A DNA stretch of 64,000 bases from Haloarcula pelagica (GTDB lineage Archaea; Halobacteriota; Halobacteria; Halobacteriales; Haloarculaceae). The stretch is from contig NZ_CP126163.1 in NCBI RefSeq assembly GCF_030127105.1, forward strand, positions 62,001-126,000. The letters run 5' to 3'. Positions 18,443-28,059 of this stretch are shown here, in pieces; the first letter of the stretch is position 1, and each line of letters opens with the position of its first letter. The notes below the pieces were generated by a model that did not search any database, was not told the DNA's origin, and saw only the letters and a list, made by a program, of their open reading frames with translations. The translations under genes were made by a program, and so were the position numbers.

Positions 18443-18890
18443 GCCGACGCTCCAGCTATCCCAGCTGGCCCAGGAGCCTGGCCAGAGGTTTCTCCGTGGA
18501 AAGACGACTGCCACAAAACGTATTCCAAGACTGCCCAGTGATACGAATCGGGCGGCGGTCCCTGGACGCCAGTACGAAGGGGTACCGTCCGATTGGGACC
18601 CGCCCCCATCTGGCAGCGAGGGAATACACCGCACGTCCAGAGGCCATTGTGGCAGGGTACTCCACTGACATCGATGTAACTCCCCTGCTTATGTCAGGCA
18701 AGCCAGTAGTGTGAATGCAGCGTCGCTGCGAACTGTCAGAGGCATGCCGGTCGGGTAAGCATCACCGACCTGGCTTTTCCACATCATTTGCTGAAGGTCC
18801 TCCCCACCCAATAGCGTTGAGAGAAGCAGGAAATTTAACTAGTGCTCGACAGACCGACTACATTATACAGTCGCTGAGAGAGCAACGGTG
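18443..18890. other. Intergenic region with 3'-end remnant of a neighbouring gene type
   Basis: About 450 bases without a convincing gene. A minus-strand frame ending at 18456 finishes PLARLLGQLG, matching the last residues (HLAKLLGQLR) of the gene at 19703-20149, and the DNA CAGCTGGCCCAGGAGCCTGG resembles that gene's 3' end. So a duplicate of that gene was lost here except for its tail. Confidence 0.5.
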
Positions 18891-26448: not shown

Positions 26449-26730
26449 TCAGTGTGACGCACAGCTGCATTGCTCCTTGTCGAGTCGCTCGATTGCCTGT
26501 CGTGGGATCGCTAAGACCTGCAAGTCAGTCTGGCGGAGTGCGTGGACGAGCTCCCGTCGTCCTGCTGGGTCACCCGCAGTCTCTCGCAGGCGTCGCTGGT
26601 GCCTAGGTGGTAACTCCGCACAGAGGACCGCTCGGAGAGACTCTTCGCGGACTTCGGTGACCAACAGCCAGGGGTCGCTGTCGTAGTCGGCGAGTGTGAT
26701 GCACTCGCCCAGTTCGGGCAGGCGACTCAT
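26449..26730 (-). CDS. Hypothetical protein, 93 aa
   Basis: MSRLPELGECITLADYDSDP, then LLVTEVREESLRAVLCAELPPRHQRRLRE and DLQVLAIPRQAIERLDKEQ. A Shine-Dalgarno sequence GGAGGTGG lies six bases before the ATG at 26730. The first 40 residues look beta-rich. It may be the downstream gene of the weak frame at 26727-27065, whose stop overlaps this start. Confidence 0.65.
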   Translation of the reverse strand: MSRLPELGECITLADYDSDPWLLVTEVREESLRAVLCAELPPRHQRRLRETAGDPAGRRELVHALRQTDLQVLAIPRQAIERLDKEQCSCASH

Positions 26731-27065
26731 CGGCCACCTCCGAGATGGCCGCCCTCGGGCGGTCCAGAAAGCTTATTCCGGGCCTGCCCACACCGACCGA
26801 GTGGGTCCCGGTTCCCGCTTCGCAGTCCCCTCTCACTTGCCCCAAGCGCATCCACCGGGGCCCGATTGCCCACCTGTTTCAGCGCCGACCGCGGGTCTGA
26901 CATGGTGCCCCGCGGGTCGGCGATCCCTCTTTGGGTTTCCAGTATGTTTGGTAGGGATGACTCTCGGTGCGGGGGCGTTCGCTTTCGAGGTCCAGGTAGG
27001 TGCTCACCCAGGCGTGTAAGGACAAATGGGTGTGTGAGTCCAGACGAGTTGTTGACGATGCCCAT
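26727..27065 (-). CDS. Doubtful 112-aa ORF coupled to downstream gene
   Basis: From ATG 27065 (MGIVNNSSGLTHPFVLTRLG), with a strong GGGAGGTGG six bases upstream and a stop overlapping the next start. These translation signals favour a real gene, but the second half is Gly/Arg-rich (NRAPVDALGASERGLRSGNRDPLG) and overlaps strong hairpins on the opposite strand at 26803-26922. It may be only a short leader peptide or an artefact. Confidence 0.3.
   Translation of the reverse strand: MGIVNNSSGLTHPFVLTRLGEHLPGPRKRTPPHRESSLPNILETQRGIADPRGTMSDPRSALKQVGNRAPVDALGASERGLRSGNRDPLGRCGQARNKLSGPPEGGHLGGGR
26803..26922 (+). ncRNA. Hairpin-rich segment at left end of structured cluster
   Basis: GGGTCCCGG (26803-26811) can pair with CCGGGGCCC (26855-26863), and CGCCGACC-GCGGG (26883-26895) pairs with CCCGC-GGGTCGGCG (26909-26922) with a single bulge. 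A TTATTCC element lies about 28 bases before the first stem. This resembles the units further right, but a coding frame exists on the other strand, so confidence is low. Confidence 0.3.
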
Positions 27066-27091
27066 CAGGAACCACCTCCCGAATGAGTGGA

Positions 27092-27132
27092 AACCGCAGT
27101 ACAGCGCTCGATATCGACCGACGGTTTATCAC
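27092..27132 (+). promoter_or_regulatory. Duplicated promoter box, copy 1
   Basis: A 25-base block starting AACCGCAGTACAGCGCT and ending CGATATCG, followed by a TATA-like TTTATCAC (27125-27132). The block recurs with one difference at 27266, again followed by TTTATTAG. It precedes stem-closed segment 1. Confidence 0.6.
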
Positions 27133-27149
27133 GACTCTGCCCTATCTCG

Positions 27150-27222
27150 TTGGTGGGGCCCTGTTTGACCCCGTGCTCACTCCTGAGCATTGACCCATCA
27201 ATTGCCCCAGGGCCCCGTTTTT
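27150..27222 (+). ncRNA. Candidate small RNA 1 (long-range stem, internal hairpin, T-run)
   Basis: GGGGCCCTG (27155-27163) is a perfect complement of CAGGGCCCC (27208-27216), followed by GTTTTT as a possible terminator. Inside is a perfect hairpin TGCTCA-CTCC-TGAGCA (27174-27189). The closing stem starts about 25 bases after the TATA-like element of the duplicated promoter box, which is where transcription should begin. No plausible protein is encoded. Product and role unknown. Confidence 0.5.
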
Positions 27223-27265
27223 GCATGAGCTGGAACGTGGTCGTAGACACAGTAGACCCAGAGAG

Positions 27266-27306
27266 AACCGCAGTACAGCGCTTGATATCGGACCACCGTT
27301 TATTAG
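27266..27306 (+). promoter_or_regulatory. Duplicated promoter box, copy 2
   Basis: Same 25-base block as at 27092 with one T/C difference (AACCGCAGTACAGCGCT then TGATATCG without shift), followed by TTTATTAG (27299-27306). Confidence 0.6.
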
Positions 27307-27326
27307 GCAGCCGTGTGGGAAGTTTC

Positions 27327-27392
27327 GTGGGGCCCTGGATACCCTCGCTCTCTTCCCCGTGAGTACTCGCCACACTCGCACCGGGGCCCCAG
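27327..27392 (+). ncRNA. Candidate small RNA 2 (paralogue of RNA 1)
   Basis: GGGGCCCTGG (27329-27338) pairs with CCGGGGCCCC (27381-27390), ten pairs with one G-T wobble. The stem sequence GTGGGGCCCTG is identical to the 5' stem of candidate RNA 1, and the promoter box is duplicated too. The interior differs. A stem kept by different 3' strands in the two units supports RNA function. Confidence 0.5.
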
Positions 27393-27485
27393 TTCTGGCT
27401 TGCAGCTGTAGCCGAATCCAATAGCATGTGTGTTGGTAGCATCGTGATGCAACAATTACATCTACAACCGACAGCGTAGGGAATG

Positions 27486-27597
27486 GTGCCGGCGTAGCAA
27501 GGTCCGCTTTGTCCGGCACGATTGTCAGAGGCACGCGACGACTGGCCTCGTCGCCTGGGTCGATGGGGCCAGCTGTCGCATAGAGACATACGACAGC
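27486..27597. repeat. Three consecutive perfect hairpins
   Basis: GTGCCGG (27486-27492) with CCGGCAC (27513-27519); GCGACGA (27535-27541) with TCGTCGC (27548-27554); GCTGTCG (27572-27578) with CGACAGC (27591-27597). Each has a perfect 7-bp stem, within 112 bases of DNA that encodes nothing recognisable. They continue the structured cluster between candidate RNAs 2 and 3. Confidence 0.6.
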
Positions 27598-27625
27598 GGT
27601 TCTCACAGCGGTAGTTATGCTGGAT

Positions 27626-27705
27626 TCCTACGTAGGACTGCGCAGGGACCCGGTTCGCCACCCGTTCGGTGGCAGTATGCCTCTGACACCATCCATCCGG
27701 GTCCC
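27626..27705 (+). ncRNA. Candidate small RNA 3 with upstream palindrome
   Basis: GGGACCCGG (27645-27653) is a perfect complement of CCGGGTCCC (27697-27705); nested inside is GCCACC-CGTTC-GGTGGC (27657-27673), also perfect. Just upstream is the palindrome TCCTACGTAGGA (27626-27637). The fold is a long closing stem with an internal hairpin, like candidate RNA 1. No terminal T-run is seen. Confidence 0.45.
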
Positions 27706-27738
27706 GGTTCTGTCCTGCCGAGTGCCGACGGTGCCAGC

Positions 27739-28059
27739 TCATTGCCGATCACCACCGTCGGCGACGACCTGGCGGGTGTCACAGACGCTCGCGAGCGTTT
27801 CGGCCTGAGCCTGGAGGCAGCTCTCGCCAGCGTCGGTCAGGCGATAGGCGTTCGTGCGCTCGTCCAGGGACTCTCGGCTGACGAGCCCGGCCTCGACCAG
27901 CTCGTCGAGGTTCTGGTAGAGCCGACTGTGGTTGATCGGCTTGGGATAGTGCTCGTCGAGGTAGTCTTTGAGCGCGAGGCCGTAGGGCTCGTCCGCGACG
28001 CCGGCGATGGCCGTCAGCAGATCCCGCTGGAAGCCCGTGAGTTCGTGGTAGGTCGTCAT
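27739..28059 (-). CDS. PadR-like winged-helix regulator
   Basis: 106 residues, MTTYHELTGFQRDLLTAIAG, then GLALKDYLDEHYPKPINHSRLYQNLDELVEAGLVSRESLDERTNAYRLTDAG, the PadR-type winged helix in which a recognition helix (INHSRLYQNLDELV) is followed by the wing. GGGTGAG lies 5 bases upstream of the ATG as ribosome site. It is transcribed toward the structured RNA cluster and may regulate it. The TGAACGGGAG repeats upstream are candidate operators. Confidence 0.8.
   Translation of the reverse strand: MTTYHELTGFQRDLLTAIAGVADEPYGLALKDYLDEHYPKPINHSRLYQNLDELVEAGLVSRESLDERTNAYRLTDAGESCLQAQAETLASVCDTRQVVADGGDRQ

Follow-up and report, generated by a model that had tools for sequence, protein, structure and literature searches.

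The locus raises the question of whether a 0.9-kb stretch packed with hairpins encodes RNA and, if so, what such RNA might act on. The stretch (26,803-27,705) belongs to a window of 64,000 nucleotides, the whole piece of Haloarcula pelagica DNA that was analysed, carried by a 258-kb replicon within a 4.46-Mb genome; close matches of the window were Haloarcula plasmids. It is flanked by a conserved hypothetical gene (26449-26730, minus strand) and by a PadR-family gene. A first-pass annotation, made from the sequence alone, had read it as tandem small RNAs of a new family, possibly regulated by the adjacent PadR-like protein. The hairpin observation is real, and it is more interesting than first stated.

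Anatomy and conservation of the RNA units

All hairpins originally pointed out were present, namely the closing stems (P1) of the units termed here U1 (GGGGCCCTG 27155-27163 / CAGGGCCCC 27208-27216), U2 (GGGGCCCTGG/CCGGGGCCCC) and U3 (GGGACCCGG 27645-27653 / CCGGGTCCC 27697-27705), three 7-bp hairpins at 27486, 27535 and 27572, and a bulged hairpin at 26883-26922; the TTTTT run was located at 27218-27222, in U1. Three features had been overlooked: a further closed unit, U0, at the start of the interval, a 38-bp upstream element, 87% identical, before both U1 and U2, and the arrangement of the three 7-bp hairpins as one minus-strand RNA, U4. As judged from sequence comparison, the interval is almost certainly a cluster of five intergenic small-RNA genes, U0-U3 on the plus strand and U4 on the minus strand (Table 1).

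Table 1 Features of the interval and of one further candidate in the window
Feature	Position	Strand	Basis
U5, weaker candidate RNA	18680..18840	-	Architecture only
U0, putative type-A RNA gene	26772..26922	+	Homologues with conserved promoter, compensatory changes
U1, putative type-B RNA gene	27092..27222	+	Repeat pair with U2; homologues
U2, second putative type-B RNA gene	27266..27391	+	P1 27329-27338 / 27381-27390; repeat pair, homologues
U4, putative RNA gene divergent from U3	27486..27598	-	Hairpin-tag-hairpin architecture in seven loci
Predicted anti-rosR tag of U4, GTGCCTCTGACA, exact	27523..27534	-	Complementary to nt 2-13 of the same-genome rosR mRNA
U3, putative RNA gene of the divergent pair	27615..27716	+	Homologues with compensatory stems
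Predicted anti-rosR tag of U3, ATGCCTCTGACA	27677..27688	+	One mismatch to GTGCCTCTGACA
PadR-family gene, RosR paralogue	27739..28059	-	Pfam PadR E 2.5e-11

In a folding test against 200 dinucleotide shuffles, every unit folded better than its shuffles, with z-scores of -2.8 to -3.5 for units that were picked after being seen (U0 -2.98, U1 -3.51, U2 -2.80, U3 -3.10, and U4 on the minus strand -2.97). The high hairpin density claimed for the region held as an enrichment (mean z of 100-nt tiles, -0.93, compared with -0.26 for the remainder of the window), but the region as a block was not extreme. Folding by itself is suggestive only, and it is the comparison with homologues that settles the matter. 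Homologues of all five units were found in Haloarcula, where the stems were kept, most with compensatory changes and several of these two-sided. Because the homologues keep promoter, structure and compensatory changes, the units are regarded as RNA genes. P1 of U0-U3 begins 28-29 nt after a TATA box, which is the archaeal spacing, and the stem opens at, or close to, the position where transcription would be expected to begin; the promoter of U4 is less clear than those of the other four. The plasmid homologues overlap no annotated gene, apart from one match that meets the end of a gene with its first base, and those in named species lie at unannotated intergenic positions. The earlier reading of several small RNAs is therefore well supported by intergenic location, TATA spacing, conserved structure, compensatory changes and lack of annotation in named relatives. 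As for their novelty, a search of Rfam returned no match above the gathering score in 26,803-27,705 (best sub-threshold E 0.47, on the opposite strand), but the units represent several families rather than one. ARAGORN found no tRNA or tmRNA in the same interval, and the phage collection gave no match.

U0 (type A) comprises a TATA box, CTTATT (26772-26777), the closing stem GGGTCCCGG (26803-26811) / CCGGGGCCC (26855-26863), a linker, and a second hairpin, CGCCGACCGCGGG (26883-26895) / CCCGCGGGTCGGCG (26909-26922). Its homologues were located on C2 and C1 of the same genome, in H. halophila (3 copies) and on two plasmids of Haloarcula sp. GH36; the promoter and GGTCCCGGTTCCCGCT were invariant among them, and four pairs of the second hairpin showed changes on both sides.

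U1 and U2 (type B) share the P1 form GGGGCCCTG(G)/C(C)GGGGCCCC and are preceded by the upstream elements at 27092-27129 and 27266-27303, which include the TATA sequences TTTAT at 27125-27129 and 27299-27303, respectively. U1 additionally contains an inner hairpin, TGCTCA/TGAGCA, and the invariant GACCCATCAATTGCC. Homologues of type B were found on the chromosome of the same genome (C1:3119736, 77%) and in GH36 (two), with a related unit in H. halophila. Four pairs displayed two-sided change, and in the GH36 homologue of U2 a G-C pair of P1 was replaced by A-U on both sides. A covariance model of U1/U2 with promoter, run on 392 genomes, gave true matches in H. halophila and in the genome under study but nowhere else; weak matches fitted the upstream element at best. 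When the upstream element GCAGTACAGCGCTCGATA was searched as a widespread promoter mark, only sporadic matches within the genus were obtained. Separately, a part of this element, AACCGCAGTACAGCG, recurred near a conserved gene start in several Haloarcula genomes (L022, L023, L026 and L029), where it may have a regulatory role independent of these RNAs.

U3, preceded by a TATA-like TTAT (27615-27618), preserves its closing stem through compensatory replacement of GGGACCCGG/CCGGGTCCC by GGAACCTGG/CCGGGTTCC in H. litorea and by GGGACACAG/CTGTGTCCC in GH36. The hairpins of U4 span 27598-27572, 27554-27535 and 27519-27486, and 7 of the 18 predicted pairs showed two-sided compensatory change across the seven loci of its family. 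Downstream of U4, an imperfect palindrome, GATGCAACAATTACATC (approximately 27443-27465 of the window), was observed, which recurs beside relatives in the own C2 and in H. litorea and is possibly a transcription-factor site.

A 12-nt tag shared across Halobacteriales

An exposed 12-nt segment, GUGCCUCUGACA (AUGCC... in U3), is common to U3 and U4 and missing from U0, U1 and U2; the GH36 homologue of U3 no longer carries it. In the U4 family it is the only long stretch without variation and lies between two hairpins whose sequences vary, a part of it being weakly paired in structure predictions of U4. The motifs of U3 and U4 are 154 bp apart, compared with 143-153 bp at other Haloarcula loci. 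A miniature inverted-repeat transposable element (MITE) was considered for this arrangement and rejected: a conserved interior with unrelated flanks was expected, and homologous flanks with a variable interior were found.

The wider occurrence of this segment emerged through the type-A covariance model, which matched two chromosomal copies and a divergent relative, L048 (E 0.013). The divergent relative opened a genus-wide P1-GGGUUCUGG family, to which a type-A pattern search also led by way of further Haloarcula species. Members consist of P1 (GGGTTCTGG/CCAGAACCC) and a second hairpin joined by a linker, GTGCCTCTGAC, that hardly varies, so that the tag forms the constant segment connecting two helices; the covariation of P1 taken alone was weak (2 pairs). 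The linker motif is exact in U4 and has one mismatch in U3. In the second-hairpin loop of the A5 alignment (L048-L107, L152), a nearly invariant TGCCCAT/TGCCCGT was also observed; its complement, ATGGGCA, could serve as a second anti-start tag.

The motif alone matched in 32 of 32 Haloarcula genomes, above a reversed control in most of them, and the tag GTGCCTCTGACA (the motif plus one base) was present in 336 of the 392 genomes of the order Halobacteriales. Summed over the per-genome table, in which the rosR start itself is part of every count, 149 tag matches were obtained in 27 Haloarcula genomes vs 12 for the reversed pattern (about 12-fold) and 117 vs 3 in ten f14 genomes, with a maximum of 40 copies in a single genome (G168). 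Haloarcula hispanica ATCC 33960 carries several tagged copies, one of which is located on plasmid pHH400. Scans of viral contigs with 14-mers around the tag gave a large number of probable chance matches.

The tagged sites lie in RNA-like elements that are mutually unrelated in sequence and structure. The tag occurs either in hairpin loops such as those closed by GCGGCAGT/ACTGCCGC, TGAGAGCGAC/GTCGCTCTCA and GACGTCCGAGCGC/GCGCTCGGACGTC, or, as in U4, in the stretch that separates two hairpins. A test of 70 instances outside rosR, drawn almost entirely from other genera, found a closing stem around 10 of them at p<0.01, where 0.7 would be expected, and around 15 at p<0.05, against an expectation of 3.5; the majority of these distant instances had no significant hairpin loop. 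Elsewhere in the window, U5 combines a hairpin GGTCGG/CCGACC, the tag ATGCCTCTGACA (18734-18745) and a hairpin GCAGCG/CGCTGC, with a TATA-like GTTAAATTT upstream, and is possibly a sixth tagged RNA of the replicon.

The rosR mRNA start as predicted target

In the opposite sense, the motif recurs at the start of a PadR-family gene, which was identified as rosR via the PDB entries of hsRosR (E about 1e-21). RosR, VNG0258H of Halobacterium salinarum, is a transcriptional regulator (PMC3443676; PDB 6qfd, 6ez1). The ATG of rosR is located about 25 nt behind a TATA box, TTAAATAG; given this distance, the rosR mRNA probably lacks a leader and opens with AUGUCAGAGGCACAA, with AUGUCAGAGG as its predicted start. 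The tag complement, AUGUCAGAGGCAC, corresponds to this putative 5′ end. Predicted duplexes with rosR reached -26.5 kcal/mol for U4 and -25.7 kcal/mol for U3, and an exposed seed against rosR was found in these two units and in none of U0-U2. Since the tag is missing from U0-U2, a rosR-directed function would cover only part of the cluster.

The Haloarcula rosR start, as far as the sequences tell, is frozen at the nucleotide level. Codons 2-5 were TCA GAG GCA CAA in 24 of the 24 Haloarcula genomes read, a test slightly circular for codons 2-3 because the gene-finding expression required ATGTCAGA; when rosR starts were read without ATGTCAGA in the pattern, ATGTCAGA again appeared at every locus read. 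The remaining conserved rosR codons had 2.36 synonyms on average, and TCA made up 5 of the 128 Ser codons elsewhere in the part of rosR examined.

Within Haloarculaceae, drifted rosR starts were found in g20 (GAGTCACAA or GAGACACAA), G102 (GAGGCGCAA), and G103 and G436 (GAGGCCCAA). The canonical motif matched only once in 20 genomes of g9, g20, g22, G036 and G102, a comparison for which some of the g9 rosR starts were read, and this single match was the rosR start of G112, itself canonical. In G076, where rosR begins ATGTCAGAGTCACAA, a co-varied GTGACTCTGACA is situated in the loop of the hairpin GCATGCCG/CGGCATGC. Co-varied tags were found neither in the g9 genomes searched nor in G102, and the apparent co-variation of G076 is one event, the only one found, and no proof. 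For G066, whose rosR start is ATGTCAGAAGCACAA, a tag GTGCTTCTGACA is predicted in hairpin loops.

A second gene starting with ATGTCAGAGGCAC (MSEAHRQTRSVTHTVISAVARYEGVDPAS...), presumably HalOD1-like, was observed at L122:1499 (plus strand), which corresponds to a site near 823,652 of the own C1, and rosR may accordingly not be the sole target of the tag.

These observations bear on several alternative explanations. The RNAs may be real and structured, with GUGCCUCUGACA as the place where an RNA-binding protein binds or acts in processing; the rosR match would then be a coincidence or another site of the same protein. That unrelated RNAs share an invariant segment between helices would fit such a role, as would some genomes (g21) that lack other copies despite a canonical rosR. 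Nevertheless, rosR mRNA carries the complement and not the motif itself, rare synonymous codons are fixed at the rosR start, and the tag loss and the one co-variation track the rosR sequence, which makes a protein site unlikely. A DNA element, either an operator (for example of RosR) or a mobile element with inverted ends, beside which the hairpins would be incidental, is a clearly poorer account: the inverted motif pairs, 143-154 bp apart, do resemble the ends of a small transposable element, and the motif is also present at the rosR gene start, but the sequence outside the pair is homologous between loci and that inside much more variable, the opposite of an inserted element. Moreover, the stems are kept through compensatory changes, and the motif is found in loops or in linkers and, wherever a TATA box was identified, downstream of it.

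Slightly less credible still are small RNAs that serve the plasmid itself, for instance in partitioning, the control of copy number or some other role of the replicon, and have no connection to rosR. In three strains, U0-U2 clusters are indeed carried by large plasmids or secondary replicons, and no U1 target was found in the own genome, where a search for GGCAATTGATGGGTC with up to 2 mismatches returned the RNA genes themselves only and the invariant GACCCATCAATTGCC had no near-complement elsewhere. However, types A and B also exist as single chromosomal copies, and tagged relatives are found on chromosomes throughout the order. Chance pairing in GC-rich DNA without RNA genes, as the self-complementarity of GGGNCCC and the only moderately raised tile-wise folding might suggest, can hardly be upheld when homologues keep promoters, and stems through compensatory changes.

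Proposed mechanism and relation to known systems

The reading favoured here is that U3, U4 and their relatives are probably trans-acting small RNAs on rosR. The tagged RNAs would be expressed from their own genes, and the tag would pair in trans with AUGUCAGAGGCAC, the first 12-13 nt of the rosR mRNA. Such pairing would cover the start codon of the leader-free mRNA, blocking initiation and/or triggering decay of the rosR mRNA, and many separately controlled RNA genes could thereby feed into one stress regulator. U0-U2 would probably act likewise on other mRNAs, with GACCCATCAATTGCC, CGTGCATCACTCGC and CCACCTGTTTCAG as candidate pairing segments. The recurrence of the tag across the order suggests a widespread, undescribed way of controlling rosR; in the open-access papers searched, no account was found of the tag or of small RNAs regulating rosR mRNA.

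As for the PadR-like neighbour, proposed earlier as a possible regulator of the RNAs, the sequences point to another link: its product, which shares 49% identity over 81 aa with RosR, is a paralogue of that regulator, and two RNAs of the cluster are apparently tagged against the chromosomal rosR. The paralogue itself starts with ATGACGACC... and has no tag site. No PadR or RosR-paralogue gene was annotated beside the related clusters of GH36 and H. halophila. A bolder and rather doubtful extension would make rosR of Halobacteriales a hub, addressed by up to dozens of unrelated tagged RNA genes per genome, with plasmids such as this one adding tagged RNAs together with a RosR paralogue that lacks the tag site. 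Under a hub arrangement, the first 13 nt of rosR would be frozen because the tagged RNA genes share the antisense tag. That a plasmid turns down the host rosR while supplying its own paralogue is speculation.

Targets are known for only a small number of archaeal small RNAs, and the tag bears on how RNAs could control mRNAs that open with their start codon. An order-wide tag fixed against the 5′ end of one transcription-factor mRNA offers a concrete, testable prediction, and it would mean that RNAs, too, take part in controlling the oxidative-stress network of haloarchaea. RosR, known elsewhere as a transcriptional regulator, appears here as a predicted target. A point against this reading is that rosR of Haloferax volcanii was not differentially expressed in oxidative stress (PMC5892119).

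Regulatory RNAs of haloarchaea have been described in H. volcanii. The SHOxi RNA (254 nt) destabilises the malic enzyme mRNA during oxidative stress (PMC12482152). The other, hvo_1211s, measures about 420 nt and overlaps cirA; RosR has been proposed as its repressor (PMC13286277). The tagged RNAs resemble both as haloarchaeal regulatory RNAs that would pair with mRNAs, and hvo_1211s further shares the connection to RosR. In contrast, neither report, as far as consulted, describes a shared tag, multi-copy family or rosR-mRNA target.

Among bacteria, Qrr1-5 and LhrC1-5 are multi-copy small RNAs that share an unpaired seed directed at a single hub mRNA. The likeness lies in several RNA genes, a shared seed and a single hub mRNA. 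Copies of Qrr1-5 and LhrC1-5 are alike overall, whereas the archaeal RNAs presented here are structurally unrelated and share only the 12-nt tag, which, unlike the bacterial seeds, is aimed at the first nucleotides of a predicted leaderless mRNA. In archaea, sRNA162 is encoded by a single gene and is not known as a multi-copy tag against a leaderless start. This trans-acting RNA of Methanosarcina mazei has a transcription-factor mRNA as its target (PMC5892119). It therefore parallels the proposed system as an archaeal trans-acting RNA on a transcription-factor mRNA, while belonging to another archaeal class.
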